Assembly (NCBI RefSeq): GCF_017349315.1
Contig: NZ_JAFMPP010000006.1
Span: 62,001-126,000, forward strand
Direction of reading: 5' to 3'
Source of the DNA: Jiella flava
GTDB taxonomy: Bacteria > Pseudomonadota > Alphaproteobacteria > Rhizobiales > Rhizobiaceae
Length of the DNA: 64,000 nucleotides
The first letter of the stretch is position 1; every line of letters begins with the position of its first letter. Under the pieces are notes generated by a model. The model had not been told where the DNA came from and searched no databases. It saw only the letters and a list, made by a program, of their open reading frames with translations. Below are positions 5,970 through 32,685 of the stretch, piece after piece. The position numbers and the translations under genes were made by a program.

Positions 5970-5974
5970 CGCGA

Positions 5975-12385: not shown

Positions 12386-12507
12386 TGTTCCCAGCCACAT
12401 CGATCGTCAGACTGATAGTTTTGACTACTTGTTGTCGAGCTCAATCAAGAAAAGGGGTGTGGCAAAAAAATGTTTGCTAGGCTTTACGAACTGAATGCGC
12501 GCCATAA

Positions 12508-13731: not shown

Positions 13732-13762
13732 CGGCGTCGGCCAACCGCCGCGTTGGCCCGCC

Positions 13763-13796
13763 GTCCCCGCCCTTGCCGAACGCCCAAGCCGGGGAC
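13763..13796 (+). other. Hairpin between tssA and tssB
   Basis: The arms GTCCCCG (13763-13769) and CGGGGAC (13790-13796) enclose a second pair CTTG/CAAG (13772-13775 and 13785-13788), giving an 11-base-pair stem with small bulges in the 138-base gap. There is no T-run after it. It may protect or process the mRNA so that sheath genes are expressed more than tssA. Confidence 0.35.
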
Positions 13797-13869
13797 TTCG
13801 GCTCAATGCAACGACGGAGCCCCCGACATCCGGTGGTCTTCGACCCGACCTTTATGAAGGAGTGCGACA

Positions 13870-14394
13870 ATGGAAAGCGTTCACCAGAAGCTGGATCGGG
13901 TGCGCAAGCCCCGCGTCCACATCAAATACGAAGTCGAGACCGAAGGCGCGATGGTGGTCAAGGAATTGCCCTTCGTGGTCGGCGTGCTCGGCGATTTCTC
14001 GGGTGATCCGACGGCCAAGCTCAAACCCTTCGGCGAGCGCAAGTTCGTGCAGATCGATCGCGATAATTTCGACGACGTGATGCGAAGGATGTCGCCGGGC
14101 CTCCACCTGTCGGTCGAGAACACGCTGACCGGCGACGGCACCGACATGGAAGTCTCGCTGCGCTTCGACCGGCTCGAAGACTTCGAGCCGGGCGCCATCG
14201 TCCAGCAGGTTCCCGCGCTGAAAGCGCTGCTCGATGCCCGCAATGAGCTGCGCGATCTGATGAGCAAGGCCGACCGTTCGGAAGATCTGGAGCAGCTCCT
14301 CGAAGATGTCCTGCAGAATAAGGGCGATCTCGAAAAACTGGTCGGCGAGCTTGCCAAGCGCCGACAGGCCGATAGCCAGAACCAGGCTGACTGA
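13870..14394 (+). CDS. tssB: T6SS sheath small subunit TssB (VipA)
   Basis: 174 residues. The N-terminal [13 protein letters not shown] and [13 protein letters not shown] are hallmarks of TssB/VipA. The C-terminal half is helical ([16 protein letters not shown]) and pairs with TssC to build the contractile sheath. AAGGAG lies 9 bases before the ATG. tssC follows after 20 bases. TagJ in the same operon is known in other systems to bind the TssB N-terminus and help recruit ClpV. Confidence 0.95.
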
Positions 14395-14414
14395 CCCCAG
14401 GAAGGACCCTGATC

Positions 14415-15893: not shown

Positions 15894-15948
15894 GCCGTCG
15901 CCGGTCGCCTCCGCGCGGCCGGCATCAACCGCCGCAGGAAATGAGGCC

Positions 15949-17349
15949 ATGAGGGGCGACCCGTCCGATTGGATCTTCCGGACCGTCTGCGATCGCGTCA
16001 TCGCCAAGATCGACGCGGCGCTGGAGCGTCAAGTCAACGCGATCATCCATCATCCGCAATTCCAGGAGATGGAGGCGCGGTGGCGGGGGCTGGCCTTGCT
16101 CGTCCGCACGGCGGCACGCAGCGAGGACGTCAAGATCAAGGTCGTGTCCGTCAGCTGGCGCGACCTTGGCCGCAGCCTCGAACGGGCCGGCGAATTCGAT
16201 CAAAGCGCGCTGTTCGACCTCGTCTATAATCGCGAATTCGGAGCACCCGGCGGCGAGCCCTTCGGGCTGTTGGTCGGCGACTATCTCTTGTCCCCGACGC
16301 CCCGTGGCACCGGCGATACGGTCGGCGCGCTGCAAGCGATCGGCGGCGTCGCGGCCGCCGCCTTCAGCCCATTCGTCGCCGGCGCCGCACCCGAGGCGCT
16401 CGGTCTGGCGGAGTTCAGCGACCTCAACCGCACCTTCGACTTGTCCCTCACCGACCGCGATCCCGGCCTCGTTCGCTGGCTGTCGATGCGCTCGGACGAA
16501 GACTCGCGCTTTCTCGGCCTGGTCGCGCCGCGCATCCTGTTTCGCGCCCCCTATACACCCTATGAGCGGTGCCGTGACGACGGCTTTCCGTTCCAGGAAA
16601 CGATCGCCAGCGACGGAAGCACGCTGTTGTGGGGCAACGGCGCCTTCGCCTTTGCCGCGATCGTCATCCGCGCCTTCATCGATACCGGCTGGTTTGCCGA
16701 TCTTCGCGGCGTCACCCAGGATCGTGTCGACGGCGGCATGCTGGGGCCGAGCGAGCTGTTGCCCCTCGATCTCGGCATCGAGAGCGCCGGGCTTTCCGAG
16801 CAGCCGCCGGTCGAGGTGCGCCTGACGGTCCAGCAGCAACAGCAAATGGCCGACAAAGGCCTGATCCCGATCGGCACGACCTATCTGTCGCCGGCGCTGA
16901 TCTTCAATTCCAACCAGTCGCTGCATTCGCCGGGTCGCTATTCCTCCGAAAGCGCCCGTCAAAACGCCCGCCTCGCGGCGATGCTGCAATATGTGCTCTG
17001 CGCCTCGCGCTTCTCGCATTACCTTAAGGTGATCATGCGCGACGAGATCGGCGCCCTTTCGGACGCCAGCATCATCGAGCGCCGGCTGGCCGACTGGCTG
17101 GCCGAATACACCCTCGGCAACGACGATGCGAGCCAGGAGCTGCGCACCCGCTATCCCCTGCGCTCGGCCGGCATCGAGGTCGGCGAGATCCCCGGCAAAC
17201 CCGGCAGCTTCGCCTGCACCGTCCGCCTCCAGCCGCATTTCCAGCTCGACGACGTCACGACGAGCTTTCACCTCGTGGCGGAATCGCCCGGCCTTGCGGG
17301 CGAGACCCGCGATCGCGGTCCCGCCGTCCCAGAAAGGGTCTTCGCATGA
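15949..17349 (+). CDS. Second TssC-like protein with shortened N-terminus
   Basis: 466 residues, clearly homologous to the preceding TssC: IIHHPQFQEMEARWRGL, EFGAPGGEPFGLLVGDY and SRFSHYLKVIMRDEIG match its core. It starts only about 17 residues before the first shared block, whereas TssC starts about 70 before, so the TssB-pairing segment is mostly missing. A five-glutamine run lies at about residue 294 within VRLTVQQQQQMADKG. Agrobacterium also carries two tssC genes in tandem. Ribosome site AGGAAATGAGG before ATG 15949. It overlaps tagJ by 4 bases (ATGA). It may modulate or cap the sheath; function is inferred. Confidence 0.88.
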   Translation: MRGDPSDWIFRTVCDRVIAKIDAALERQVNAIIHHPQFQEMEARWRGLALLVRTAARSEDVKIKVVSVSWRDLGRSLERAGEFDQSALFDLVYNREFGAPGGEPFGLLVGDYLLSPTPRGTGDTVGALQAIGGVAAAAFSPFVAGAAPEALGLAEFSDLNRTFDLSLTDRDPGLVRWLSMRSDEDSRFLGLVAPRILFRAPYTPYERCRDDGFPFQETIASDGSTLLWGNGAFAFAAIVIRAFIDTGWFADLRGVTQDRVDGGMLGPSELLPLDLGIESAGLSEQPPVEVRLTVQQQQQMADKGLIPIGTTYLSPALIFNSNQSLHSPGRYSSESARQNARLAAMLQYVLCASRFSHYLKVIMRDEIGALSDASIIERRLADWLAEYTLGNDDASQELRTRYPLRSAGIEVGEIPGKPGSFACTVRLQPHFQLDDVTTSFHLVAESPGLAGETRDRGPAVPERVFA

Positions 17350-18170
17350 CGCTCGCCGCTCAAATCTCCGAAGCCCTCGATCGCAACGCCCTCGACGAGG
17401 CGGTGGCTGCGGCGACCGCGGCCGTGCGCGATGGCCCGTCGGATGCCGTCGCGCGCAACCTGCTGATCGATCTGCTGATCCTTGAAGGCCAATTCGAGCG
17501 GGCCGACAAGCAATGCGCCCTCGCCAGCACGTTCTCGCCGGACCTCGCCGTCGGCTTCGCACGGCTGCGTGGCGAATTGCGCGGCATGGCCGCGCGCGAG
17601 GCCTTCTTTACCGAGGGGGCCGTGCCGGCCTTTCCGGGGGAGCCGAGCGCCTGCGATGCGCTCGCCCTGCGCCTTTCGGTCAGCGCACGTAAAGGCACGC
17701 AGAGCGAGACCAAGCCGCTGCTCGAAGCCCTGGAAGATGAGCGCGCCGGCCAGGCGATGATCGTCAACGGCACCCCGGTGGCCGATTTTCGCGATTGCGA
17801 CGACCGCACGCCCCATGCGCTGGAGGCGATCTCGTCCGGCGGCGCCTATCTGTGGGTCGACTTCGCCAAGATCGCCGCCCTGACCCTCAAGCCGATGAGC
17901 CGGCCGCGGGACATCGCCTTTCGCGAAGCCGAGCTGACGCTGCATGATGGCAGCGTCGGCACGGTGCTCGTCCCGATGCTCTATCATGGCGGCACGCAGG
18001 CGGCAGAGGTCAAGCTCGGGCGCGAGACCGCCTGGCAGGATCTCGGCAGCGGCATCACCGTCGGCTGCGGCCAGCGCTGCTTCCTGTCCGGCGATGATCT
18101 TCTGCCGATCCTCGAACTCAAGACGCTGGAGGCCGCGGCGCCGGCCGATCGGGAGGCGCTGCATGCCTGA
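17346..18170 (+). CDS. tagJ: T6SS accessory protein TagJ (ImpE/SciE family)
   Basis: 274 residues. An N-terminal TPR-like helical repeat region (DALDEAVAAATAAVR as EAVAAATAAVR, then LLIDLLILEGQFERADKQ) is followed by a beta-rich ImpE domain with WVDFAKIAALTLKPMSRPRD and LVPMLYHGG. In H1-type systems TagJ binds the TssB N-terminus and ClpV. It overlaps the second tssC by ATGA and tssE by 8 bases, indicating tight coupling. Confidence 0.88.
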   Translation: MTLAAQISEALDRNALDEAVAAATAAVRDGPSDAVARNLLIDLLILEGQFERADKQCALASTFSPDLAVGFARLRGELRGMAAREAFFTEGAVPAFPGEPSACDALALRLSVSARKGTQSETKPLLEALEDERAGQAMIVNGTPVADFRDCDDRTPHALEAISSGGAYLWVDFAKIAALTLKPMSRPRDIAFREAELTLHDGSVGTVLVPMLYHGGTQAAEVKLGRETAWQDLGSGITVGCGQRCFLSGDDLLPILELKTLEAAAPADREALHA

Positions 18171-18672
18171 TCCGCTCGACCGCTTCGTCCCCAGCACCGC
18201 CGGCTACGCCCGCCCGCTCCTCGACCGGCTGATCGACGCCGAGCCGGACAGCCCCGAGGACGCGCCGCAGCGGCCGGTGGATCAGATGCGGCAGCTGCGC
18301 GAGGGCATCCGGCGTGACCTCGAAGCGCTGCTCAACACCCGGCGCAATCCGGTCAGCACGCCGGCTGCCCTGCCCGCTCTGGACAGCGCGCTGGTCTCTT
18401 ACGGGATCGACGGATTCGTCGCCGCCAATCTCGCCACCGAGGCGGCGAAGCTGCGCTTTGCCCGGGCCGTCGAGCGACGCATCGCGATGTTCGAGACGCG
18501 GCTGTCCAACGTCTCTGTCACCATCATCAAGCGCAGCGACGACCGCGACCGGGCGCTGCGCATGCGCATCCAGGCGACATTCCGCCTTTATGAAGGCATG
18601 CCGCCGATCAGACTGGAATCGATGGTCGACCCGTCGACCTCGCGGATCGAGATCGAGGCCCCGCATGGCTGA
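18163..18672 (+). CDS. tssE: T6SS baseplate protein TssE (gp25-like)
   Basis: 169 residues, gp25/lysozyme-like baseplate wedge protein. Core motifs are LREGIRRDLEALLNTRR (about residues 45-61), SLVSYGIDG as LVSYGIDGF, and RIAMFETRLSNVSV. The start at 18163 has GGGAGG seven bases upstream and overlaps tagJ by 8 bases. The stop overlaps tssF by 8 bases. Confidence 0.92.
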   Translation: MPDPLDRFVPSTAGYARPLLDRLIDAEPDSPEDAPQRPVDQMRQLREGIRRDLEALLNTRRNPVSTPAALPALDSALVSYGIDGFVAANLATEAAKLRFARAVERRIAMFETRLSNVSVTIIKRSDDRDRALRMRIQATFRLYEGMPPIRLESMVDPSTSRIEIEAPHG

Positions 18673-20434
18673 CTTCCTCGCCCATTACAACGAGGAACTC
18701 GACGCTCTGCGTGAGCGCGCGGCCCGCTTTGCCAAGGCGTTTCCGAAGGTCGCGGGGCGGCTGCGGCTGACCGGCGAGGTCGCCGACGATCCCCATGTCG
18801 AGCGGCTCGTCCAGAGCTTCGCCTTCAGCGCCGCGCGGGTGCGGCAAAAGCTCGACGACGAGTTTCCGGAGCTGACCAGCGGCCTGCTCGAAACGCTCTA
18901 TCCGCATTATCTGGCGCCGATCCCGTCGATGTCCGTCGTGCGCTTCCAGCCGGGTTCCGGCGCCGCCGGCGTGCTGCCCGTACCACGCCATACCGAGATC
19001 CAGGCCGAGCCGATCAACGGCGAAAGCTGCCGCTTTCGGACTTCGCAGCATGTCGAGGTCGCACCGGTTCGTCTGGCGGCGGCGCGGCTCGCCAGCCAGC
19101 CGATCGAAGCGCCCGCCTCGCCCCATCGCGGCGCGGCCTCATGCCTGCGCCTGTCGCTGCGCCCGGCGGGCGGAGCCAACGGCATCGGCGAGATCGGCCT
19201 GTCGCGGCTGCGCTTCTTTCTCGCTGGCTCCTGGCGCCAGGCGAGCGGCCTCGCCGAGTTGTTGATGAACCACACGCTCGGCCTTGCTCTTGCCCGTCAT
19301 TCCAGCGATCCGGAGCCGATCCTTTTGCCGAAGACGCGGCTGCGGGCGGTGGGATTCGACGCCGATGAAGGGTTGCTGCCCTACCCGCCGACCAGCTTTT
19401 CCGGCTACCGGCTGCTGACCGAATTCTTCGCCCTCCCGCAGAAATTCCTGTTTCTCGAGATCGACGGCCTCGACGCCTGGGCCGGCAAGGATCTTGAAAT
19501 CTTTGTCTATCTCGACGAGTCGAACAGCACGCTCGAACAGGCGGTTTCAGCCGAAGATTTCGTGATCAACGCCACCCCGGTGGTCAATCTCTTTCGCCAG
19601 CTGTGCGAGCCAATCACCCTCGATGGCACCCGCACCGAATATCGGCTGATCCCGGATTCGCGCCGCCAGAAGAGCCGCGAGATCCATTCGGTCACCGCCG
19701 TCAATGTCGGCGAACGCACCGGCACGCGCTATCCGAGCGTCCCGTTCTTCGGGCGCACGCGGACCTCCCACACCGGCGTCTACTGGCAGGTTAACCGGCA
19801 GTTTTCCGACGACGGCAGCAGCGACGTCGACATCGCCTTTGTCGACGAAAACCGGCGCAGCACCGGCCCGCTGGACGCTGTGGCAAGTGTCGAAACGCTG
19901 TGTCTCAATCGCGATCTGCCGGAAAGCCTGCCGTTTGGCGGCGGCCATCCGCATCTCTCCTTGGTCGACGGCATGGAGACGATCGAGGCGGTCGAGGCGC
20001 TGGTGCCGCCGACGCCGACGGTCCGGCTTGACGAAGCCGATGGCCGAAATTGGCGGCTGATGTCGCATCTTCTTCTCAACCATCTGTCGCTCGCCGATCA
20101 GGGCGGCAGCGCGCTGAAGGACATCCTCAAGCTCTACGCCTTCCGTGATACGCCGGAAACGCGCCAGCTCGCCGGCTCGATCGCCAGCATCGAGACGACG
20201 AGCGCCACGACCCGGATCCAGGCCGGCATGGTGCCGGGCACGGAAATCGCCTTGACCTTCGATCCGGCGACGATCGACCGGCCCTCGGCCTATCTTTTCG
20301 GCGCAGTGCTCGACCGCTTTTTCGGCCTTTACACCTCTATCAACAGCTACACCCGGCTCACCGTGCATCTGCGGGGCCAATCGCGACCGGTCGCGCGCTT
20401 TGCGCCGCGGGCGGCGGAAAGGCCGCTGTTATGA
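18665..20434 (+). CDS. tssF: T6SS baseplate protein TssF (VasA/ImpG)
   Basis: 589 residues, the expected length for TssF. It starts MADFLAHYNEELDALRERA, with FAKAFPKVAGRL and DPHVERLVQSFAF close behind, the standard N-terminal block. DEFPELTSGLLETLYPHYL and SMSVVRFQPG follow. TssF forms the baseplate wedge with TssG, TssE and TssK. The start at 18665 overlaps tssE; the frame is open further upstream but the family block starts here. tssG follows with an ATGA overlap. Confidence 0.95.
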   Translation: MADFLAHYNEELDALRERAARFAKAFPKVAGRLRLTGEVADDPHVERLVQSFAFSAARVRQKLDDEFPELTSGLLETLYPHYLAPIPSMSVVRFQPGSGAAGVLPVPRHTEIQAEPINGESCRFRTSQHVEVAPVRLAAARLASQPIEAPASPHRGAASCLRLSLRPAGGANGIGEIGLSRLRFFLAGSWRQASGLAELLMNHTLGLALARHSSDPEPILLPKTRLRAVGFDADEGLLPYPPTSFSGYRLLTEFFALPQKFLFLEIDGLDAWAGKDLEIFVYLDESNSTLEQAVSAEDFVINATPVVNLFRQLCEPITLDGTRTEYRLIPDSRRQKSREIHSVTAVNVGERTGTRYPSVPFFGRTRTSHTGVYWQVNRQFSDDGSSDVDIAFVDENRRSTGPLDAVASVETLCLNRDLPESLPFGGGHPHLSLVDGMETIEAVEALVPPTPTVRLDEADGRNWRLMSHLLLNHLSLADQGGSALKDILKLYAFRDTPETRQLAGSIASIETTSATTRIQAGMVPGTEIALTFDPATIDRPSAYLFGAVLDRFFGLYTSINSYTRLTVHLRGQSRPVARFAPRAAERPLL

Positions 20435-21477
20435 GCGCATTGGAAAAACTCCCCGACGTTCAATGGGCGCCGAGTACCGCCAACGATAGCGACGCGGAGA
20501 TGCTGCGCCAGCGGCTGGCAAACGACCCCGGGCGTTTCGAATTCACCACCGCGTTTCGGGTTGCGACCGAAGATCCGGCGGTGCGCGTCACCTCCACCTT
20601 CGGCGTGCGGCCGGCGGCGGTTGCGGTGACGATCGGGACTGAGCGCGGCGGCGACCGCGTGGCGGCGACGCCCGCCGGCGGTCTGATCGGCTCGCTCGGC
20701 GTCCTACCGCCCTCCTATGACGAGGCGGTAATGCGCGAAGAGCGCAACCGCTCCCACGCCCTGCGCAGCTTCGTCGATCTCTTCACCGCCCGGATCACCG
20801 CCCTTCTCGTCGGCGCCGCCGAGAAATACCGGCTGGCCCGGCGGCTGCGCTGGGCCGAGGCCGGCGGCAAGACGGGCAATGCCTTCCTCAAGACGCTGTT
20901 CTCGCTCACCGGCTTCAACTCGGAACGGCTGCGCACCGAAAGCCGCATCGATCCCGATATCCTCCTGCGGTATTCCGGCTTCTTCGCCCAGCGCATCCGC
21001 AACGCGGCCAGCCTGCAGGCCATGCTCGCCGAAGTGACGGGCGTCCCGGTGCGCATCGAGCAGTTTCGCCCGCGCTGGCTGACGATTGCCGACAGCGACC
21101 GAACCGCCATCGACGGCCGTTCGCAACTCGGCGTCGACACGATCGCCGGGGCCTCGATCAAGGACCACTCCTCGGGCTTTCGCATCGTCCTCGGGCCATT
21201 GGGCTACGACGACTATCTCGCCTTTGCGCCCGGCAAGCCGGATGCCGCCGCACTGGTGGCGCTGACCCAGCTTTTCGTCGGCTCGGGTCTGACCTTTGAC
21301 GTGCAGATGGTCCTGAAAAAAGACGAGATCCCGCTTTGCCAGCTCGGCAGCCAAGGCCCGGCGGCGCCGCGGCTTGGCTGGAACAGCTGGGCACGGGTGG
21401 CGCCAGCGGTGGCGGACAGCGGCGACGCGTTCTATCCGGCCGAGGTCGGCAGCAGGGAGGCAACGCATGCGGCTTGA
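20431..21477 (+). CDS. tssG: T6SS baseplate protein TssG (VasB/ImpH)
   Basis: 348 residues. Motifs of the family: FTTAFRVATEDP near the start, GSLGVLPPSYDEAVMREE, LRSFVDLFTARITALL and RYSGFFAQRIRNAASL. TssG pairs with two TssF copies in the wedge. It starts at the ATGA overlap with tssF and ends 11 bases inside tagH. Confidence 0.93.
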   Translation: MSALEKLPDVQWAPSTANDSDAEMLRQRLANDPGRFEFTTAFRVATEDPAVRVTSTFGVRPAAVAVTIGTERGGDRVAATPAGGLIGSLGVLPPSYDEAVMREERNRSHALRSFVDLFTARITALLVGAAEKYRLARRLRWAEAGGKTGNAFLKTLFSLTGFNSERLRTESRIDPDILLRYSGFFAQRIRNAASLQAMLAEVTGVPVRIEQFRPRWLTIADSDRTAIDGRSQLGVDTIAGASIKDHSSGFRIVLGPLGYDDYLAFAPGKPDAAALVALTQLFVGSGLTFDVQMVLKKDEIPLCQLGSQGPAAPRLGWNSWARVAPAVADSGDAFYPAEVGSREATHAA

Positions 21478-23095
21478 ACTGCGCCAGACCGCTGGCCCCG
21501 AGGCGCCGAATACCCGCCGCGGCTGGACGCTGGAACGCGGGCGGCGCACCCTTGGGGGCGGTCGCGACTGCGACTGGCCGGTCGCCGATGAGAGTCCGGA
21601 CCTGTCCGACCATCACTGCGTCATCGCCCGCGACCGCGACGGCTTCTTTCTGCAAGATCTCAGCGCCCATGGCACGCGAGTGAACGACGCGCTGCTGCGC
21701 CAGGGCGAGCGGGCACGGCTGCTGCAAGGCTCGACCATCGCCTTTGGCGACGTGGCATTCGCCGTCGCCGTATTCGGCGAGCCGGAGCCCGATCTGGACG
21801 ACCCCTCGGCCGATCTGCGGCTGAGCGAAGAGGCACCAACGATCTCCTCGATCCTCGCCGACGTCGCGCCGGCCCGCGCGTCCGGCAGCGGCTTGGCCGG
21901 CCACCTCTTCGACGACGAACGGCTCTCTGCGGGTGCCCCGCGCCCGGCGGTCGGCGCATTCGGCGAAACGCCGCGCGGCCCCTCCTCCCGCCACGTCGAG
22001 ATCGGCTGGGACGGCCCGCCGAAGATCGGCAGCGACCGGCCGCTGCTGCCCGACGATTGGAACGACGACGCTGCCGATACGACCTATGCCAGCGAGCTCG
22101 AACACCGCCCGGCGATCACCACCGCCGTGTCGCACATGCGCTACGGTTCAGGCCGGCGCGATGAAACGCCGGCCGAGATCCCAGACGATGTCTTTGAAGG
22201 TCTCGCGCCACCCGAGAAGGAGCGGCCAACCGCGCCGAGCGAAGAGGCACCGCCAGCCACGCCGCCGGCTGGCGAGGCGGCGATCCCGCCGCGACCGACC
22301 CTGGTGCCGCAGCCGAGCCACGACGCCGACCCTGCGCCACGGCGGCCGGAGCGGGAGCCAGGCAGCGCCTTGCTTGACGACGTCTTTTCCCGGCCGCGCG
22401 AAACACAGCCGCCGCATCTGCCGTCGACCGCCGACGGGCCGTTCGGGCAGCCGCGTTTTCCCGAAGGCCCGGCACAGCCCATGACCGGGCCGAGCGTGAC
22501 CGATATCTTGGCAACGCCGCCGAAGCCCCAGCCCCTGGATGTCGATCGCGCCAACGGCCCGCGTGAGGCCAAGCCGACGCCCACAGCGCGGCCGCGGCCG
22601 ACGCTCGCAGCCGTCGTCTCGGATATGCCGCCACCGCCCGCGCCGCCGGTTGCCATGGCCGACGCGATACCATCGGCCGACAGCCGGCCGCCGCGTCTCG
22701 AAACGCTGCTACGCGAAGCTGAAGAGGCGGTGGACGAAATGTCCGCGCTGCTCGGCCTGCCCGAGAGCGCGCGGCCGCAGGCGCGGCGCACCGATACGCC
22801 CGAAATGCGGCTGGAAATGATTGTCGCCCATCAGATTGCCCAGCGCGAAGGGCTCGCCCGGATGCTCCAAGACGCTGGCCAGCTGTTCGAGCCGCGGTTG
22901 ATCGAGGCACGGGTGGACCGCCGGCGCGGCATCTTCGCCGTCCTGAGGCGCCCCGGCCTCTACTGGACGGAATACCGGGCCGCCTTCCGGCAAGACGGCA
23001 AGGATCTGTCGGTGTCGCAAATCCTGCAGCGGCTGATCGGCCACGAGGACCGCACGCCATCGACCGAAACACCCCCCATGAGCGACGACCATTGA
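21467..23095 (+). CDS. tagH: FHA-domain T6SS protein TagH (Fha/ImpI)
   Basis: 542 residues. An N-terminal FHA domain (about 1-105) has LGGGRDCDWPV, SDHHCVI and HGTRVND, the phosphothreonine-binding loops. A long proline-rich disordered region (about 120-390) is followed by a helical C-terminal TagH domain ending RPGLYWTEYRAAF and LSVSQILQRLIG. The start at 21467 has AGGGAGG upstream; the frame is open earlier but there is no homology. In Agrobacterium, Fha binds TssL phosphorylated by PpkA. Here no PpkA gene is in the cluster, so the FHA ligand is unknown. Confidence 0.88.
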   Translation: MRLELRQTAGPEAPNTRRGWTLERGRRTLGGGRDCDWPVADESPDLSDHHCVIARDRDGFFLQDLSAHGTRVNDALLRQGERARLLQGSTIAFGDVAFAVAVFGEPEPDLDDPSADLRLSEEAPTISSILADVAPARASGSGLAGHLFDDERLSAGAPRPAVGAFGETPRGPSSRHVEIGWDGPPKIGSDRPLLPDDWNDDAADTTYASELEHRPAITTAVSHMRYGSGRRDETPAEIPDDVFEGLAPPEKERPTAPSEEAPPATPPAGEAAIPPRPTLVPQPSHDADPAPRRPEREPGSALLDDVFSRPRETQPPHLPSTADGPFGQPRFPEGPAQPMTGPSVTDILATPPKPQPLDVDRANGPREAKPTPTARPRPTLAAVVSDMPPPPAPPVAMADAIPSADSRPPRLETLLREAEEAVDEMSALLGLPESARPQARRTDTPEMRLEMIVAHQIAQREGLARMLQDAGQLFEPRLIEARVDRRRGIFAVLRRPGLYWTEYRAAFRQDGKDLSVSQILQRLIGHEDRTPSTETPPMSDDH

Positions 23096-23114: not shown

Positions 23115-24455
23115 ATGAAGAACGAGAACCGGGTGGCATGGAGCGAAGGCATGTTCCTTCGCGTGCAGCACTTCCAGCAGTCCGATCGCTGGACGGAACG
23201 GCTCGTGCGCACGACCCTGCACGAGACGATCCCCTATGCCTGGGGCTTGGCCGACATCGAGATCGATCGCAGCGCGCTGGCCATCGGCCAATTCGCCCTG
23301 TCGGGTATTCGCGGCATCCTGCCCGACGGCACGCCGTTTGAGGCCCCCGGCGACACCGACTTGCCGCCACCGCTGGATCTCCACGACACGGTGAAGAACG
23401 AGATGGTCTATCTCGCGCTGCCCGCGCGCCGGCCGGGCAAGGCCTATGCGGTGATGCAGCCGAAGGGCGAATTGAACGGGGCGCGGATCGCCGCCACGCC
23501 CTTCGAGGCGCCGGACGCCAACATCGACACCGATTTCATCGCGCCGATCGACGTGGCGCGGCTGAATCTGCGGTTTCTGACGGGTAGCGACGAACTGGCC
23601 GGCTACGATCTCATCGGTCTTGCGCGGGTCATCGAGGTGCGCTCGGATCGCTCGGTCGATCTCGATCCGGATTTTCTCGCGCCAAGCCTGACCTGCGCCG
23701 CCGAGGGCCGGCTGCGCGAACTCGTCACCGAACTTCTCGGCATCGTGCGCCACCGCGCCGCCGCGATCGCCGACCGGATCGGCGATCCGACCATTCGTGG
23801 CACCGCCGAGGTCGGGGATTTCTTCCTTCTGCAGATCCTCAATCGGGCGGACCCGATGCTAGCCCATATCGCGGCCAATGCCAGCCGGCTCCATCCGATG
23901 AGCTTTTACGAGTTCTGCATCCAGCTCGCGGGCGAACTTTCAACCTTCACCGCCGACGCGAAACGGGCAAGCGAGTTTCCGCCCTATCGCCATGACGATC
24001 TGAAAGCGACCTTTCACGCGGTCTTCGAGGACCTGCGCACCTCGCTGTCGGCCGTTCTCGCCCAGACCGCCGTCGCCATCGATCTCGTCGAGCGCCGCCA
24101 CGGCGTGCGCGTCGGAACGATCCGCGACCGCTCGCTGCTGGCGAGCGCCGGCTTCGTCCTGGTCGTCGGCGCCGACATGCCGGCCGAGGACATCCGCCGC
24201 AAGCTGCCGGCGCAGATCAAGGTCGGTCCGATCGAGCGCATCGTCGAGCTCGTCAACGTCGCCCTTCCCGGTATCCCCGTCCGCCCCTTGCCGGTGCTGC
24301 CGCGGCAGCTGCCGTATCGCTCGGGCCGCGTCTACTTCGAGCTGGATACCGGCTCGCCGCTTTGGAAACAGCTGGAGACCAGCGGCGCGATCGCGCTGCA
24401 TCTGGCCGGCGACTTCCCCGAACTCGACATGGAACTATGGGCGCTGCGTGAATGA
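23115..24455 (+). CDS. tssK: T6SS baseplate protein TssK (VasE/ImpJ)
   Basis: 446 residues, normal length. It starts MKNENRVAWSEGMFLRVQHF, matching the family's W.EGMFL.PQHFQ block. HPMSFYEFCIQLAGEL and ELSTFTADAKRASEFPPY (about 255-290) and the C-terminal GRVYFELDTGSPLWKQL as VYFELDTGSPLW are also typical. TssK trimers link the baseplate to the TssJLM membrane complex. It ends with an ATGA overlap into tssL. Confidence 0.95.
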   Translation: MKNENRVAWSEGMFLRVQHFQQSDRWTERLVRTTLHETIPYAWGLADIEIDRSALAIGQFALSGIRGILPDGTPFEAPGDTDLPPPLDLHDTVKNEMVYLALPARRPGKAYAVMQPKGELNGARIAATPFEAPDANIDTDFIAPIDVARLNLRFLTGSDELAGYDLIGLARVIEVRSDRSVDLDPDFLAPSLTCAAEGRLRELVTELLGIVRHRAAAIADRIGDPTIRGTAEVGDFFLLQILNRADPMLAHIAANASRLHPMSFYEFCIQLAGELSTFTADAKRASEFPPYRHDDLKATFHAVFEDLRTSLSAVLAQTAVAIDLVERRHGVRVGTIRDRSLLASAGFVLVVGADMPAEDIRRKLPAQIKVGPIERIVELVNVALPGIPVRPLPVLPRQLPYRSGRVYFELDTGSPLWKQLETSGAIALHLAGDFPELDMELWALRE

Positions 24456-26104
24456 GTGCGACCTTCCCCCCGACCGGTGATCGAACGACGCTCGGATCCG
24501 ACGACGACCTTCGGACCAAGGACCAACGCGCGCCCGAAGTCTTCGACGATCTCGTCGAGTCCGCCCCGCCCTTCGCCGATGGGCCGCCGATGGCGGCGCC
24601 GCAGCGGCCGCAGGGTGGCGGCTGGTCGCCGGAGGTGCTGCTGCGCAGCTTCCGCTTCGGTGGCAGCGAAGTGCCGGTCATCGTCGCCTCGGCCGCGCCC
24701 CTGCTCAATCTCGCCCATGAGCTTCGCCAGCGCGGTTCCGCCCCCAATATCGAGGAGTTGCGCCCGACGGTGATCGAGGCGGTGCGCCGCTATGAGCGCG
24801 ATCTCGCCAGCGCCCGGATCAGTCCAGAGCGGGCCCGCGCCGCCCACTACGTCATCTGCGCCACCATCGACGACGTCATTCTCGCCCAGCCCTGGGGCGA
24901 GCGAATCGCCTGGGCGCGGCAGGGCCTCGTCTCGACCTTCCACATGGATGTCACCGGCGGCGACCGGGTGTTCGACCTGCTCGACCACTTCCACCAAAGC
25001 CCGGGCGCGAACAAGGACCTTCTGCTCCTCATCTATCTTTGCATCTCGCTCGCCTTCGAGGGGCGCACCCGGGTCTCCGCCCGCGGCGCGCTGGAACTCG
25101 AACGCATCCGCGAAAGCCTCTACCGCACGCTGCTCGGGCAGTTCGGCGTGTTCGAGCGCGAACTCTCGCCCCATTGGCGCGGCGTCAACGCCCGGCATAA
25201 GCCTCTGCGCACGGCGACGGTGTTGTGGACGCTTCTCGCGCTCCTCGCGCTGATCCTCGGCATCGGCTATCTGTTCTTCCTGATCGGCCTCAACCGCGCC
25301 TCGGACGGCACCTTCAGCGCCCTCGCCTCGCTGCCGCCGAACCAGGCGCCGTCGCTGGCACCGCCTCCGCCGCCGCCGGCCCCGAAGGTCGAAACGGTCA
25401 AGGCCGCGCCGAAAACGGCACCGCCGCCGCCCAAACCAACGCCGCCGGCCAAGCCCCAGGTTTCGGACCTCGAAAAGCGGCTTAAAAACCTGATGGCCTT
25501 CCTGCAGCCGGAGGTGGAGAAGGGTCTCGTCGGGCTCTCCAACGCCAATGGGCGCCTCTTGGTGCGGATTTCCAATGCCGGCCTGTTCGACACCGGCAGT
25601 GCCGATGTCAATCCGAAATTCCAGGGACTGTTGCAGCGCATCGGTGGGGCCTTGGCGTCGGAAGACTTCAAGGCGGTCGTCGTCGGTTACACCGACAACG
25701 TTCCCATCCATACGCCGGAATTCCCGTCGAACTACGACCTTTCCAAGGCCCGCGCCAAGGCTGTCGGCGACGTGCTGTCGCAGTTCACCGGCCCCGGCCA
25801 GGTCACCACCGAGGGGCGCGCCGACAGCGATCCGATCGCCAGCAACGACACCCCCGAGGGTCGGGAGAAGAATCGGCGCACGGAAATCCTGGTGATGACC
25901 GACGCCGCCAATCGGCTCGAAAACTCGGGTGCCCAGGCGATGGGGGCTCCGGCGCCGCAACAGCCCGCCGCAACAGCGATCCCCGATCTGAAGGGCGCGC
26001 AAACAGCCTTGCCTGAACCCTCGACCCGCGACGCCGCGCCAGCCGCGGCGCCGGTCAAGCCCACCCCGACTGTTCCCCCCGCTTCGCAAGGCTCCGCGCA
26101 GTGA
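24452..26104 (+). CDS. tssL: T6SS membrane protein TssL with OmpA peptidoglycan-binding domain
   Basis: 550 residues. A cytoplasmic DotU-type domain (about 50-245; CATIDDVILAQPWGERIAW as IDDVILAQPWGE, STFHMDVTGGDRVFDLL) is followed by one membrane helix (about 252-280, LLALLALILGIGYLFFLIGL), a proline-rich linker, an OmpA-like domain (about 345-485; VVGYTDNVPIH, NYDLSKARAKAV, NRRTEILV) and a proline/alanine tail. The fused wall anchor fits the lack of a TssJ lipoprotein gene. The N-terminus is rich in Thr/Ser/Asp, as in TssL proteins phosphorylated by PpkA, but no kinase is nearby. Confidence 0.94.
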   Translation: MSATFPPTGDRTTLGSDDDLRTKDQRAPEVFDDLVESAPPFADGPPMAAPQRPQGGGWSPEVLLRSFRFGGSEVPVIVASAAPLLNLAHELRQRGSAPNIEELRPTVIEAVRRYERDLASARISPERARAAHYVICATIDDVILAQPWGERIAWARQGLVSTFHMDVTGGDRVFDLLDHFHQSPGANKDLLLLIYLCISLAFEGRTRVSARGALELERIRESLYRTLLGQFGVFERELSPHWRGVNARHKPLRTATVLWTLLALLALILGIGYLFFLIGLNRASDGTFSALASLPPNQAPSLAPPPPPPAPKVETVKAAPKTAPPPPKPTPPAKPQVSDLEKRLKNLMAFLQPEVEKGLVGLSNANGRLLVRISNAGLFDTGSADVNPKFQGLLQRIGGALASEDFKAVVVGYTDNVPIHTPEFPSNYDLSKARAKAVGDVLSQFTGPGQVTTEGRADSDPIASNDTPEGREKNRRTEILVMTDAANRLENSGAQAMGAPAPQQPAATAIPDLKGAQTALPEPSTRDAAPAAAPVKPTPTVPPASQGSAQ

Positions 26105-29100
26105 ACCCGCTCAGTTCCTTCTATACAATCCGCTCCTATGCGGAGGCCTATGCCGGGCTGATCGGCCGGCGCTTCCTGTCGCTGATCTGGGTCGTGGCGA
26201 TCTGCTTCGTCATCTGGTTCTACGGCTATCTCGCCGCCTTCGGCAGCTTCAAGCCGCTGGCAAGCCAGAGCCACCGCCTGATCGCCATCGGCCTCGTCGT
26301 CCTCGCCTGGCTGATCTATCTCGGCGTCTCGGCCTATCGATCGCGCAAGCGCGACAAGGAGCTGGTCGAGGGGATCGAGCAGGACGCCGAAGCCCTGGCC
26401 GAGGGCGAGCGCAGCGCCGAGGTCGAGGCGGTGCGCGGTCAGCTGCGCGATGCGCTGGCGCTGCTCAGGCGGGTCACCCGGCGGCGGCTCGGCTATGTTT
26501 ACGAGTTGCCCTGGTACGTGATTTTCGGCGCGCCGGGCTCCGGCAAAACCACCGCCGTGACCAATTCCGGCCTCACCTTTCCACTCGGGGAAGCCAGCGG
26601 CAGCGAAGGCGTCGACGGGGTCGCCGGCACGCGCACCTGCAATTGGTGGTTCAGCGAGGACGCGATCCTCGTCGACACCGCCGGCCGCTACACCATTCAG
26701 GACGACCTCAACGGCGCGGCCAAGGCCGGCTGGGAAGGTCTGCTCAACCTCTTGAAGCGCTACCGGCGCTCGCAGCCGGTCAACGGCGCGCTGATCATCC
26801 TGTCGATCCAGGATCTCCTCGGCCAGGATCCCGATGCCCGCCGCAACGAGGTGCGGGCGATCCGCAAGCGCCTTGCCGAGATGGACGAGTTCCTCAAGGC
26901 CCGGGTGCCGGTCTATCTCGTGCTGACCAAGGCCGATCTTCTGACCGGCTTCACCGAATTCTTCGACGGCTTCAACAAGAGCGACCGCGAACAGGTCTGG
27001 GGCATGACCTTCGATCTGGCGGCCAGCAACAAGGCGAGCGTGCTGCCGGAGAAGTTCCAGGAGGAATTCGGCCTCCTCCAGGAGCGGGTCGGCGCGATGC
27101 TGATCGAGCGGCTGCAACAGGAGCCGGATTTGGAGATCCGCGGCCGCATCTTCCGCTTTCCGGCCGAGCTGTCCGCCCTCGAGGATGGCGTCCACGAGAT
27201 CCTGACCGAGCTGTGCTCGGGCTCCAAGCTGGTCGTGCCGCCGCTGCTGCGCGGCGTCTATCTCGCCTCGGGCACGCAGACCCAGAAGTCGGCTCGCAAT
27301 CTCATCGCGCAGCCGGTGCCGCGTATGCGCCGGAGCTATTTTCTCACCCGCCTGTTCACCGACGTGATCTTCGGCGAAGCGGCGCTCGTCAGCCGTGACC
27401 GCCGTCTGTCGCGGCGCCAGCGGGTCTTTCGCCAGCTCGCCTATGGCGGTGCCGTGTCGCTGCTGGTCTTCGTTCTGGCGAGTTGGACCATCGCCTATTT
27501 CCAGAACAGCTCGGCACTGGCTGAGGCGAACAATAAGATCGCCGCCTATCAGAGCGCGATCAAAGGCATTCCCGTCACCAATGTGTCCGACGCCGACTTC
27601 CTGCGCGTGCTGCCGGCACTCGACGAGCTCGCCGGCGTGACCAGCGGCTTCGACGCCATCGGCGTCTGGCCGCCGAGCTTCGGGCTCGATCAGCAGCCGA
27701 AGATCGCCAGCCGCCAGCGCGACGCCTATCAGCGAGCGCTCAATGCCCTCCTCCTGCCGCGCATGCTGGTCGAGTTGCAGACCATCATGGACAAGAGCAA
27801 GGATCCGAACCAGATCTTCGACGCCTTGAAGCTCTACGGTATGCTCGGCGGTCTCGGGCCGCTGGACCCCGGCTATGTCAAGACGCAGTCGGCGCGGCTG
27901 TTCAAGACGCTCTATCCCGAAGAGGGACGCGCCATGGTGCGCGCTTCGCTGACCCGCCACGCGACCTTGATGGCCGAAGGCGATCTGCCGCCGCTGACGC
28001 TCGATACGGTGCTGATCTCCAAGGCGCGCAGCCGGATCGCCGGCCTGACCTATCCTCAGCGCGCCCTGGCGCTTCTCAGGGAGGACGCGCATGCGGCCGA
28101 CGTAGCGAGCTGGGACGCTGCCGACGCGTTGGGTCCGGTCGGAGAAAGAGCTTTCGAACGCATCTCCGGCCAAAACCTCCAGTCCGGCGTTCCGGGGCTT
28201 TTCACCGCCGTCGGCTACAACCAGATCGTCCTGCCGAAGCTCGACGAGGCTGTCCGCACGGCTCTCAACGAGGGCTGGGTGCGGGGCTCCCCCGCTGCGA
28301 CCACCTCCGATACCGTCGACGCCGTTTCCAAAGCGACCCTCGACCTCTATGACGATGCCTTCACCAAGAACTGGACCTCGCTGATGAAGGATATCCGGGT
28401 CCGCCAGCCGCAAACCATCGCCGACGAGACAGAAACCGCCCGCATTCTCGCCAGCGTCCCGAGCCCGGTAGAGGATCTCGCCAAATCCGTCGCCGCAGCC
28501 ACCGATCTGCGGCCGCCCAGCGTCCGCCTCGCCGATGCCGCTGGCCCGTCCGACGACGGCGCTGCCACCGACGCCTCCGAAGTGGATGCAAGCGCCGCCG
28601 GAACGCTGGCTTCGGCCGTCACCCTCGGCAACACTCCAGACCCCTACGGCGATTTGCGCAAGGCGCTGAAGCCCGCCGGCAAAGGCGGCCTGACCGATGT
28701 CGCCGATGCCGCGAGCGACGCCGCCGGCGCCTCGTCCGGCAAGGAGAAGCCGTCGCAGATCGCGGCGCTCCAGCCGCTTCTCGACGCCGTCTACCAGCAG
28801 CTTTCGCGCGCCTCGACGTCCACCGCGGCCATCGCCCAGGTCTTCGATGCCGACGGTCAGCTGACCAAGTCCAATCAGGATCTTCTCCAGGCGGCCCGCC
28901 GCCTGCCGGAACCGGTGGCAACCTGGATGGTCGGGCTTGCGGCCGACGTGAACGCGCTCTCGGTGAAGACCGCCCGCCACACCTTCGCCGAGGCCTGGCA
29001 GAGCGAAGGGGCATCGCTCTGCGCCGCCGCCGTCAACGACCGCTATCCGTTCAAGCGCACTTCGAAGGAGGACATCCCCCTCGCCGACTTCACCCAACTG

Positions 29101-29670
29101 TTCGGACCGCAGGGGCTGTTCCAGAGCTTCTTCACCAAGCGCCTCGCCCCCTTTGTCGACACCACCAAGACGCCCTGGACATGGCGCGGTGCCTTTGGCG
29201 CGAAGGGGCAGGAGAGCCAGGCCCTGACGTCCTTCGAGGAAGCCGACGCGATCCGGCGGGCATTCTTCGGCTCGGATTCGCCGACGCCCACCCTGTCCAT
29301 CAATGTCGTGCCCGTGTCGCTATCCGACGCCGCCAACGCCGTGATGCTCGAAGTCGATGGCGAACGGGTGGTCTATTATCATGGGCCCAAGGTGTCGAAG
29401 TCGATCCAGTGGCCGACCAAGGACGCCGCCAATCAGTCGCTCGTCGCCTTTCAGCCGGGGGACCGCGACCAGGCGACGACGGAGAGCGGCGACTGGTCCC
29501 CGTTCCGCCTTCTCGACTCCGCAAAGATCCTGTCGCGACAGAACGACATGATGCGCGCGGAATTCGATGTCGGCGGCAAATCGGCGGTGTTCGACATCCA
29601 GTTCGGTTCCGTGCTCAATCCGTTCGATCTTCCGGCACTGAAAACGTTTCAGTGTCCGAGTTCGTTCTGA
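26101..29670 (+). CDS. tssM: T6SS inner-membrane protein TssM (IcmF/VasK)
   Basis: 1189 residues with a GTG start overlapping tssL. Two N-terminal membrane helices (about 18-45 and 60-80) and a third near 440-465 (VSLLVFVLASWTIAYF). The cytoplasmic loop has a Walker A motif GAPGSGKTT (Lys149) and ILVDTAGRY as Walker B. The periplasmic part carries the IcmF-related and VasK C-terminal regions. It contains an alanine/aspartate-rich low-complexity stretch around 815-880. TssM bridges the envelope and with TssL anchors the baseplate. Walker A is intact. Confidence 0.95.
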   Translation: MNPLSSFYTIRSYAEAYAGLIGRRFLSLIWVVAICFVIWFYGYLAAFGSFKPLASQSHRLIAIGLVVLAWLIYLGVSAYRSRKRDKELVEGIEQDAEALAEGERSAEVEAVRGQLRDALALLRRVTRRRLGYVYELPWYVIFGAPGSGKTTAVTNSGLTFPLGEASGSEGVDGVAGTRTCNWWFSEDAILVDTAGRYTIQDDLNGAAKAGWEGLLNLLKRYRRSQPVNGALIILSIQDLLGQDPDARRNEVRAIRKRLAEMDEFLKARVPVYLVLTKADLLTGFTEFFDGFNKSDREQVWGMTFDLAASNKASVLPEKFQEEFGLLQERVGAMLIERLQQEPDLEIRGRIFRFPAELSALEDGVHEILTELCSGSKLVVPPLLRGVYLASGTQTQKSARNLIAQPVPRMRRSYFLTRLFTDVIFGEAALVSRDRRLSRRQRVFRQLAYGGAVSLLVFVLASWTIAYFQNSSALAEANNKIAAYQSAIKGIPVTNVSDADFLRVLPALDELAGVTSGFDAIGVWPPSFGLDQQPKIASRQRDAYQRALNALLLPRMLVELQTIMDKSKDPNQIFDALKLYGMLGGLGPLDPGYVKTQSARLFKTLYPEEGRAMVRASLTRHATLMAEGDLPPLTLDTVLISKARSRIAGLTYPQRALALLREDAHAADVASWDAADALGPVGERAFERISGQNLQSGVPGLFTAVGYNQIVLPKLDEAVRTALNEGWVRGSPAATTSDTVDAVSKATLDLYDDAFTKNWTSLMKDIRVRQPQTIADETETARILASVPSPVEDLAKSVAAATDLRPPSVRLADAAGPSDDGAATDASEVDASAAGTLASAVTLGNTPDPYGDLRKALKPAGKGGLTDVADAASDAAGASSGKEKPSQIAALQPLLDAVYQQLSRASTSTAAIAQVFDADGQLTKSNQDLLQAARRLPEPVATWMVGLAADVNALSVKTARHTFAEAWQSEGASLCAAAVNDRYPFKRTSKEDIPLADFTQLFGPQGLFQSFFTKRLAPFVDTTKTPWTWRGAFGAKGQESQALTSFEEADAIRRAFFGSDSPTPTLSINVVPVSLSDAANAVMLEVDGERVVYYHGPKVSKSIQWPTKDAANQSLVAFQPGDRDQATTESGDWSPFRLLDSAKILSRQNDMMRAEFDVGGKSAVFDIQFGSVLNPFDLPALKTFQCPSSF

Positions 29671-29685
29671 AACGTAACGAGACCC

Positions 29686-31290
29686 ATGGCGCTCTTTCGT
29701 CATCGTCCCCGTCGCGAGCCGACGTCGCCGCCCCCGCCCGCCGGCAAGGGGCACGACGGTCGCGGCGCTGACGTGGCGTCGCGGATCGCCGCCGTCCATC
29801 CCGGCTTCTTCGGCAAAGTGCCGAGCCATGGCGATTTCGTCGCCGCCGATCTCGATCCCCGCTTTCAAACAGGATTCGATGCGTGGCTGCAGCAAAGTTT
29901 GTCGGCGAGCCGGCAGGTCCTCGGAGATCGTTGGGAACAGCTCTTTCTGGCCGCCCCCGCCTGGCGCTTCACCTTAGCGGCAGAGCTGTGCGGACCGAGC
30001 GCGATGACCGGGGTGTTTCTGCCGAGCCGCGATCGGATCGGCCGCTGCTTTCCGTTGGTCATTGCCGCCCGCCGCACGCTGGAGGGTACGACCGCGCGGA
30101 TCGTCTATGACGAGCACTGGTTCATCGTCGCCGAAGCGATCGGTCGCACCGGGCTGCAGAGCGATTTCGACCTCGCCGTCTTCCGCGACAAGCTGCGGCG
30201 CGTGCGCCCCCCGCGCGATCCGGAGGGCGCAGTCGGCCCGGCGGCGACGACCTACGGCTCGGCCTGGTGGACCGCCGGCGGCCCGACCGTGCGACCGAAG
30301 GAGTTCGCCTGCGACGGCCTGCCGCCACCGGACCGCTTTCTGGATTTCCTGGTCGAGCGACCGGGCGGCCGCAGGGCGCAAGGTGGCGCCGAAAGCCGGC
30401 CTCAGAGCGACTTTGCACCGGCGCGGGACTCAGAGCCCGCGGCAGAACGTGCGGCGGTGTCGTCCCGCCAGGAGCCCGAGAACGCCGCCCTGTCACGAGA
30501 CGCCGACCCGCATCCCCCGCCGCCGCCAGCCGGCCATCACGATCCGGACGCAGCGGACAGCCCGCTCCGGGAGGCGAGACCAACGGCTCCGCGAACGGAT
30601 CTTGTCACCACGATCGCTGGCGCTCAGCATGAGGCCGATGCCGCCGCAACGCCGCAGGCGGTGATCGTCGTCAACGAAGCGGCGGGTTTCGCCGGCGTGA
30701 TCGCCAGTTCGCTGGCCCATCGCCTCGGTCCGAAGATCGTCGGCATTGTCGCAAAGGTGCTCCACGAAAGTCCCGCCCATGACGCCCTCGACGACGCCAT
30801 CGCGGAGCTGAAAGGCAAGCTCGGCCGCGTCCATACGCTGCTGCGCACCGGCAATGCCGAAGCGATGGGCGAAACCTCGAAATTGCCTGACGATTTCTCG
30901 ATCAGCCTGGCCGTGGCGATCCACCGCGGCGGCCGGATCGCAGCACTGTGGATCGGCGATTGTCGCGGTTATCTGATGCGCGACGGGATGATGCGTTGTC
31001 TCACCCGCGATCATGTCGAGGTCGGCATGCGGCGGCGGCTGTCGCGCTCGCTCGGCAGTGCGCAAGGCTCCGCCATGCCGGATATCACAATCGAGACGGC
31101 CCTTTCCGGCGACCGATTGATGCTGTGCTCGCCCTCGATCGGCCGCCATCTCAAGGATCGCGCGATCGCCGGTGTCCTTCTCGACGGCAACCCCGAGGAG
31201 ACAGCCGACGGGCTGATCCAGGAAGCCATTCTCGCCGGGGCATCGGGCGGCCTCGCAGTTTGCCTCCTCGACCTTTCGCAAGCCCCCTGA
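29686..31290 (+). CDS. tagF: TagF domain fused to a degenerate PP2C-like domain
   Basis: 534 residues. The TagF domain (about 38-225) has GFFGKVPSHGDFV, WLQQSLSASRQVLGDRW and SRDRIGRCFPLVIA. A disordered linker (about 225-300) leads to a PP2C fold (about 310-530). The fold is recognisable from FAGVIASSLAHRL and WIGDCRGYLMRDG...LTRDH, but the metal-binding positions are lost: DG of DGMGG is N330-E331, the DG of SDGL is P483-S484, and the DN near the end is G521-G522. TagF-PppA fusions regulate T6SS post-translationally in Agrobacterium; here the phosphatase half is probably inactive. Last gene of the operon. Confidence 0.88.
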   Translation: MALFRHRPRREPTSPPPPAGKGHDGRGADVASRIAAVHPGFFGKVPSHGDFVAADLDPRFQTGFDAWLQQSLSASRQVLGDRWEQLFLAAPAWRFTLAAELCGPSAMTGVFLPSRDRIGRCFPLVIAARRTLEGTTARIVYDEHWFIVAEAIGRTGLQSDFDLAVFRDKLRRVRPPRDPEGAVGPAATTYGSAWWTAGGPTVRPKEFACDGLPPPDRFLDFLVERPGGRRAQGGAESRPQSDFAPARDSEPAAERAAVSSRQEPENAALSRDADPHPPPPPAGHHDPDAADSPLREARPTAPRTDLVTTIAGAQHEADAAATPQAVIVVNEAAGFAGVIASSLAHRLGPKIVGIVAKVLHESPAHDALDDAIAELKGKLGRVHTLLRTGNAEAMGETSKLPDDFSISLAVAIHRGGRIAALWIGDCRGYLMRDGMMRCLTRDHVEVGMRRRLSRSLGSAQGSAMPDITIETALSGDRLMLCSPSIGRHLKDRAIAGVLLDGNPEETADGLIQEAILAGASGGLAVCLLDLSQAP

Positions 31291-31390
31291 CCTCAAGCGC
31301 AGCCGTCCAGCGCACCGCTTACGAGATCGGCGCGGCGACACGTTCACCGCCAACGACGTCGCCGATCCGATCGGTGTTTGAACATGGCAA

Positions 31391-31421
31391 ACGGGGCCGA
31401 TCGTCCTGCGATCAGCCCCGT
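31391..31421. terminator. Hairpin between convergent tagF and export-lipoprotein genes
   Basis: The arms ACGGGGCCGATCG and CGATCAGCCCCGT pair over 13 positions with one C/A mismatch around the loop TCCTG. It lies in the 165-base gap between the two stop codons. On the minus strand it is followed by GTTTG, a poor T-run; on the plus strand there is none. Probably a bidirectional terminator. Confidence 0.5.
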
Positions 31422-31455
31422 CGTCAACGATCAGCTTTTGTCTGTCGCCGGCCCT

Positions 31456-32685
31456 TCAAGCCCCCGATCCGGAACTGGAACCTGACTGAGCCGGCGACGG
31501 CGCTGCGGGCAACGGCGGCGTCTTCTGGAAGACCGTCATATATTTCGCCATATCCACCGCCTGGGCATTGGTCGCGTAGAGGATGTCGTCATCCTGCATC
31601 TGGATCTGCTGCATATACAGAAAGCTCGATGGATCCTTCAGATTGATATGGACGATGATCGGGCTGGTCGTGACCGTCGTCGCCATCGCCGGCGCGGACA
31701 GCTGTTCTTTATAGGAGCCCTTCACCGCCGTGGTCTGCACGGGCTGCAGCATCTTCTGGGTCCGGAACAGATAGACGTTGATCGGATCGGCCTTGTCGTC
31801 CAACAGACCGCCGACCCGGCCGATCGCCTTGGCGAGGGTAAGATGACCGGGCTCGAACTTGAACTCACCGGTGCTCTTGAACGAACCATAGGCGGTGAAA
31901 GACGCGCCGGTGCCGCCGGTCTGGTCGCCGACACTGACCCGGTCGCCCGGCATCAAGGTGACGTCTTCAACGCGGTTCGCCATGATCTTCGCCAGCGGTG
32001 CCGACGCGGTGTGGCCGCCGCGCTGAATGGTGACGTTGGTCGTTGCCGGGCTCGACTTTGCCCCGCCCGCAAGGGCGATCACGTCGAGCACCCGGCTGCC
32101 GCCGGACGACAGCGGAAACTGTCCCGGTGTGCCGACCGAACCGTCGACGGTGACGAGGTTGCCGGCATTCGCGACGATATTGACCGTCGCCTGCGGGTTC
32201 ACCGCACTGCCACGCAGGGCGTTGGCGATCTGCCGCTGAACCGCGGCGGAGGTCGAGCCGGCAACCCGCTGACGGCCGGCGAACGGCAAGGTCACATAGC
32301 CGCGCGAATCGACGGTAAACTTGCCGAGATCGAGAGACTTGCTGTCGGTCGAGGAGAACAGCCCCTTCTCCCCGGTGTCGAAAATCGTTACGTCGATGAC
32401 GTCGCCGGTGCTGATCCGTGTCGGATCGAAGCGACCGCGCGGCAGGGTGCGAAGGCTGCCCTGCGCGGCGACAATGCTCATGTCCTGGCTGCCGGCGGCC
32501 GTCACCGGCCAGAGATAGCGGCTGGCCTGGGACAGTTCGATTACCGGCACACGTTGGCCGTCGGGTGCGATGGTCTTGGTCGCGATCGCATCCGGTTTCG
32601 GTCCGGACGAGGGAAGATAGGATTTGGGAACGCCACAGCCGGCAAGAAGAAGCAGTGCGGCAAGACAGGAAGCCGTTCGAGACAC
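31456..32685 (-). CDS. Wza-like polysaccharide export outer-membrane lipoprotein
   Basis: 409 residues. A lipoprotein signal with lipobox LLLAGC (Cys about residue 17) is followed by a Poly_export domain (about 90-185; ISTGDVIDVTIFDTGEKG and GYVTLPFAGRQRVAG) and SLBB-type repeats (TVDGSVGTPGQFPL and YGSFKSTGEFKF). Such proteins form octameric channels for capsule or exopolysaccharide. The C-terminal tail is rich in Ser/Gly/Pro. No Wzc-like kinase, flippase or glycosyltransferase is nearby, so its partner genes are elsewhere. Confidence 0.88.
   Translation of the reverse strand: MSRTASCLAALLLLAGCGVPKSYLPSSGPKPDAIATKTIAPDGQRVPVIELSQASRYLWPVTAAGSQDMSIVAAQGSLRTLPRGRFDPTRISTGDVIDVTIFDTGEKGLFSSTDSKSLDLGKFTVDSRGYVTLPFAGRQRVAGSTSAAVQRQIANALRGSAVNPQATVNIVANAGNLVTVDGSVGTPGQFPLSSGGSRVLDVIALAGGAKSSPATTNVTIQRGGHTASAPLAKIMANRVEDVTLMPGDRVSVGDQTGGTGASFTAYGSFKSTGEFKFEPGHLTLAKAIGRVGGLLDDKADPINVYLFRTQKMLQPVQTTAVKGSYKEQLSAPAMATTVTTSPIIVHINLKDPSSFLYMQQIQMQDDDILYATNAQAVDMAKYMTVFQKTPPLPAAPSPAQSGSSSGSGA

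Follow-up and report, generated by a model that had tools for sequence, protein, structure and literature searches.

A TagF repressor fused to a probable PP2C pseudophosphatase in a Jiella flava type VI secretion cluster that appears to lack the threonine-phosphorylation switch

The type VI secretion cluster and its terminal fusion gene

The window, that is the whole stretch of 64,000 nucleotides of Jiella flava analyzed here, carries a type VI secretion system (T6SS) cluster whose core genes were recognized by library models and which is closed by a gene encoding TagF fused to a PP2C-like domain. The features, in window coordinates, are as follows.

9593..12400, minus strand: clpV/tssH (library model)
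12580..21477, plus strand: tssA, tssB, two tssC genes, tssE, tssF and tssG (library models)
17346..18170, plus strand: open reading frame at the tagJ position, no NCBIfam match
21467..23095, plus strand: fha (PF00498, 48.5 bits)
23115..24455, plus strand: tssK (library model)
24452..26104, plus strand: tssL, N-terminus without the phosphosite motif (library model and alignment)
26101..29670, plus strand: tssM (library model)
29686..31290, plus strand: tagF-PP2C fusion gene, 534 aa (open reading frame)
29803..30201, plus strand: TagF domain, residues 40-172 (PF09867, E 4.9e-36)
30202..30582, plus strand: linker, partly proline-rich (read from the translation)
30583..31278, plus strand: PP2C-like domain, residues ~300-531 (phmmer, family HMM)
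31291..31455, no strand: gap of 165 bases, where relatives carry ppkA (~900 bases)
31456..32685, minus strand: polysaccharide export gene (Poly_export/SLBB), marking the position of the missing ppkA

The layout is that of group-5 (imp-type) clusters: fha sits between tssG and tssK, and tagF-PP2C follows tssM, matching annotated Rhizobium clusters. The assignment to group 5 comes from this gene order and from the group 5 classification of the Agrobacterium fusion (PMC5813230). That TagF is fused to a PP2C domain, as the first-pass annotation had read from the sequence, was borne out by library matches to PF09867 (TagF_N, 124.1 bits against a cut-off of 27) and TIGR03373 (121.1 against 41.2), and by phmmer matches of the diverged PP2C half to PstP (1txo, E 4.5e-12) and PppA (6jkv, E 3e-7); PF13672 gave this half 17.5 bits, under its 24-bit cut-off. 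The same fusion is described in the group 5 T6SS of Agrobacterium tumefaciens as TagF-PppA (Atu4331; PMC3953482, PMC5995506), and the Fha-binding positions of TagF reported there are kept in the window (G43-K44, D65/W67 and S114/D116/R120; PMC5995506).

Upstream of clpV and on the same strand lies a 297-aa open reading frame (5658-6551, minus strand) in which residues 75-155 match an RNase A-like CdiA-CT toxin domain and residues 201-286 match CdiI_2 (immunity), toxin and immunity seemingly sharing one reading frame. Among nine congeneric genomes (G001-G009), TagF/PP2C matches were weaker in seven (best E 2e-16) and none were found in two, and the nearest kin of the window's fusion, G117 and G195, belong to another family. 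The cluster may have arrived by horizontal transfer.

Metal-binding motifs and constraint in the PP2C half

In PP2C enzymes the aspartates of the DG, SDG and DN motifs are metal ligands, that of SDG being an essential one. The corresponding positions in the window, together with a conserved core, are listed here.

30673..30678, plus strand: N330-E331, taken at first as the DG position; alignment-dependent, with A340-S341 as the alternative
30949..31056, plus strand: conserved core WIGDCRGYLMRDGMMRCLTRDHVEVGMRRRLSRSLG, residues 422-457 (identity to G117)
31129..31137, plus strand: S482-P483-S484 replacing SDG (pairwise, 26-row, 46-row and HMM alignments)
31246..31251, plus strand: G521-G522 replacing DN (pairwise, 26-row, 46-row and HMM alignments)

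Of the three substitutions initially proposed, those of SDG by S482-P483-S484 and of DN by G521-G522 held, and that of DG by N330-E331 proved insecure. The DG column fell on N330-E331 in the 26-row alignment and on A340-S341 in the 46-row alignment, phmmer paired N330-E331 with the NED motif of PstP instead of its DG, and an HMM built from 37 fusion relatives aligned the window from residue 350 only, leaving the first ~50 PP2C residues unaligned. Reading the sequence directly, we found no D-G pair in residues 300-372, so the DG motif is lost whichever column is correct. The aspartate D425, the GD of WIGD, is retained. Separate PppA proteins used as controls (G003, G072 and Rhodovulum) retain DG, SD and DN. 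Compared with Pseudomonas PppA (6jkv) and PstP (1txo), to which it is related by sequence as a PP2C protein, the window's domain has SDG and DN replaced, DG unrecognizable and a flap-like loop missing. An AlphaFold2 model of the PP2C half, built from a two-row alignment of the window and Labrys, reached a mean pLDDT of 41 and was discarded.

Conservation within the domain is uneven. Between the window and G117, identity is 60% over TagF and 38% over the PP2C domain, rising to 78% in the 36-residue core. Between G117 and G195, two relatives that likewise lack the kinase, purifying selection acts on the PP2C domain (dN 0.094, dS 0.521, dN/dS ~0.18; for TagF, dN 0.062 and dS 0.465). The greater divergence of PP2C than of TagF on the window's line also fits a slow decay.

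Kinase, phosphosite and reader among fusion loci

For comparison we assembled 43 fusion loci, the window and 42 others, comprising the strongest or full-length hits and the outlying fusions G071, G171 and G544. These loci are a selection of the matches from overlapping searches, which hit 31 of 151, 82 of 397 and 86 of 394 genomes. In a plasmid search 126 records matched; seven fusion records were used together with Rhodovulum, which is not a fusion and was left out of the trait table but kept as a control.

Of the 43 fusions, 40 have no SDG aspartate; the three that retain one, G284, Shinella and G171, are outlying. DG is retained in 41 of 43 (exceptions: the window and G700), as is DN or EN (17 and 24 fusions respectively; exceptions: the window and G171), and all three motifs are absent only in the window. 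The flap-like loop spans 20 columns in each of the three PppA controls; 42 fusions have 2-3 residues left of it, and G171 has 11. Seven fusions (Labrys, G238, G286, G569, G654, G071 and G544) carry an asparagine where the window retains the GD aspartate, which points to a different route of metal-site loss.

Annotated Rhizobium loci run from tssM through tagF-PP2C and ppkA to an antisense polysaccharide-export gene. Fusion and export gene are direct neighbors in three loci, 165 bases apart in the window and, by open reading frame ends, ~ten bases apart in G117 and G195. The observation that the cluster lacks PpkA thus stands, and it extends to the whole genome: no match to PF00069 (Hanks kinase) was found in the window's genome, and 11 of 14 control genomes had matches. 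The same search was negative in G117, G195 and G487, making four of 36 distinct genomes (17 plus 20 searched, one Labrys genome being present twice); each of the other 32 gave at least one match. For the named plasmid loci the kinase was scored as the open reading frame adjoining the fusion and not by genome-wide PF00069 search, and G071, G171 and G544 carry their kinase away from the fusion. The PP2C domain is retained in all four kinase-less loci. The window's assembly consists of 49 contigs and is 99.99% complete.

A second PP2C protein was also sought in the window's genome. PF00481 and PF13672 gave no match at E 0.001 (controls: 6 and 7 of 14 genomes), and tblastn with a separate PppA returned the fusion itself and one hit at E 0.024, with no separate PppA. 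This hit was rejected as a second PP2C, its open reading frame reading as exonuclease III. Because PF13672 fails to detect even the fusion of the window, another degenerate PP2C may have escaped the search. Among the five other genomes of the genus of G487, four had no match to the G487 fusion and one, 65% complete, a weak match. Loci L029, L030 and L031, in genomes of the same order, encode a single chain with an N-terminal PP2C and a C-terminal part that reads as Ser/Thr kinase-like.

In Agrobacterium, PpkA phosphorylates TssL on Thr 14, which is then bound by Fha; either Fha substitution, R30A or S46A, lowers secretion, and the two combined abolish it (PMC3953482). Residue 14 is the threonine of LPTIVELT in G055 and Rhizobium etli, and most relatives carry LPT[IV]VE[LIV]T at the TssL N-terminus. 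In the window RTTLGSD aligns to PT[IV]VE[LI]T, with a threonine at the Thr-14 column in a different context; threonines remain in this N-terminus. With a motif wording chosen after the alignment was inspected, [PS]T[IVLAT][VI] is found in 38/38 kinase-bearing loci with data and in 0/4 kinase-less loci. The reader follows the same pattern, the FHA equivalents of R30, S46, the next His and Asn-Gly being present in 37/37 kinase-bearing loci with data and intact in 0/4 kinase-less ones (G071, whose genes fall outside its stretch, is left out of the FHA and TssL counts, and G284, with no hit, out of the FHA count). The window has G31 for the Arg equivalent to R30, D48 for Lys and H68 for Asn, and keeps the Ser (S47) and the next His; G117 and G195 share the Gly in place of Arg and the His in place of Asn, and keep the Ser and first His. 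In G487 the Ser is replaced by Gly and the His by Glu, with the Arg and Asn-Gly kept. Since the genomes without a Hanks kinase are also those that have lost the TssL motif and the FHA residues, the threonine-phosphorylation pathway indeed looks dismantled, as the first-pass annotation had suggested.

A tree was built from TssK and from TssL without its N-terminus, leaving out G071 and flagging long branches, among them Shinella, G284, G171 and G487. A single shared loss of ppkA, with the window, G117, G195 and G487 in one clade, was rejected (delta lnL 91, p-AU 4e-94). We take this as two independent kinase losses. One loss with a later regain would need as many steps on the tree; two losses are favored because different FHA residues were lost (R30 and the Asn in one case, S46 and the His in the other). 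Kinase loss apparently went with erosion of substrate site and reader twice, an association on small numbers because three of the four kinase-less loci share one ancestor, giving two events and not four.

The comparison supported neither the order implied by the first-pass annotation, the switch dismantled and the phosphatase half then converted, nor the implied uniqueness of this locus. In the window's clade (38 rows) the SDG aspartate is absent from every fusion, and ppkA adjoins the fusion in 34 of the 38; the SDG ligand being gone in a clade where the kinase is mostly still alongside places its loss before that of the kinase. From the tree and trait table, the SDG aspartate would have disappeared first, in the ancestor of the rhizobial clade and at a time when ppkA was still there. 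The common ancestor of the window, G117 and G195 would then have lost ppkA together with the phosphosite motif and the reader residues. DG and DN, which G117 and G195 both keep, would have gone on the window's own line.

Possible roles of the fusion and its wider meaning

We consider it likely that the window encodes a TagF repressor joined to a PP2C pseudophosphatase, in a T6SS without a threonine-phosphorylation switch. Control of this system seems to do without the usual phosphate switch. The Ser and His that FHA retains and the threonines left in TssL count against this reading. TagF repression needs the TagF-Fha interaction in Agrobacterium and Pseudomonas, and in the authors' model TagF keeps Fha from the membrane complex (PMC5995506). 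Extrapolating from these two organisms, TagF bound to Fha would hold the system off without phosphorylation, and the PP2C half would act through its conserved core as a non-catalytic protein-binding module, its first metal-site region being left to drift. The PP2C half is most likely non-enzymatic. A binding or sensing module, as first proposed, is plausible given the purifying selection between G117 and G195, the 36-residue core and an observation in Agrobacterium, where overexpression of the PppA domain repressed the T6SS without PpkA and left TssL phosphorylation unchanged (PMC5995506), the behavior expected of a pseudophosphatase.

An unlikely but serious alternative is that the PP2C half is a functionless, decaying remnant and that TagF alone matters. 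The Agrobacterium TagF domain by itself is enough for repression (PMC5995506), and both the unaligned first ~50 PP2C residues and the faster divergence of PP2C than TagF on the window's line would be expected of a remnant. However, the frame has stayed open, the core remains 78% identical to that of G117, dN/dS between G117 and G195 is ~0.18 and no kinase-less locus has shed the domain. We regard as highly improbable a phosphatase that persists with an altered or single metal site and another substrate. D425 is kept, and the DG and the DN or EN found in 41/43 fusions each would allow partial metal binding in relatives, but the window has lost each of DG, SDG and DN, the flap-like loop of separate PppAs is missing and PF00069 found no Hanks kinase in the genome. 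Least probable of all is that the kinase was replaced by an unrelated one or that its gene went unassembled. The genome search covered Hanks-type kinases (PF00069) only, in an assembly of 49 contigs; against this stand its 99.99% completeness, the export gene lying 165 bases from the fusion, the same lack of a Hanks kinase in G117, G195 and G487, and the eroded TssL motif and FHA residues of all four.

The preferred reading, a pseudophosphatase joined to TagF, can be carried to the wider group, where we hold it to be an even bet. The rhizobial TagF-PppA clade, very likely with the Agrobacterium protein, would then consist of pseudophosphatases and PpkA would have no cognate phosphatase; the PP2C half would be an adaptor helping TagF to hold Fha or TssL, and after loss of ppkA the phosphosite and its reader would erode and the adaptor stay. 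We infer that the Agrobacterium protein falls in the SDG-less clade from the presence there of Rhizobium, Neorhizobium, Sinorhizobium and other relatives.

Beyond the fusion itself and the Fha-binding residues shared with Agrobacterium, the window differs from that system in having no PpkA, no TssL phosphosite motif, none of DG, SDG and DN, and altered phosphothreonine-binding residues in FHA. Two further systems resemble it by description only. PHLPP2 has a PP2C-family domain whose activity disappeared in an ancestor and for which a scaffold role is proposed, but unlike the window's protein it is an animal protein and binds one zinc (PMC12002173). The group 4B T6SS of Pseudomonas putida uses TagF without a phosphorylation cascade, but its cluster has no pppA and hence no fusion (PMC5813230). 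The fusion, TagF without a phosphorylation cascade (group 4B) and PP2C pseudophosphatases (PHLPP2) are already known. We found no paper in the open-licence PMC literature on a TagF or type VI secretion pseudophosphatase, nor on genomes without the PpkA/TssL threonine-phosphorylation pathway. What appears to be new is the combination, a probable pseudophosphatase fused to TagF in a system whose kinase, phosphosite and reader have eroded together.

These loci offer a natural experiment, in which the phosphorylation switch of a T6SS was removed apparently twice, the site and its reader wore away and the repressor stayed. Loss of the SDG aspartate in the clade would give a simple reason why the PppA domain of Agrobacterium represses secretion with no change in TssL phosphorylation (PMC5995506), an observation that had been puzzling. 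If true, the label "phosphatase" on rhizobial TagF-PppA proteins would need correction.
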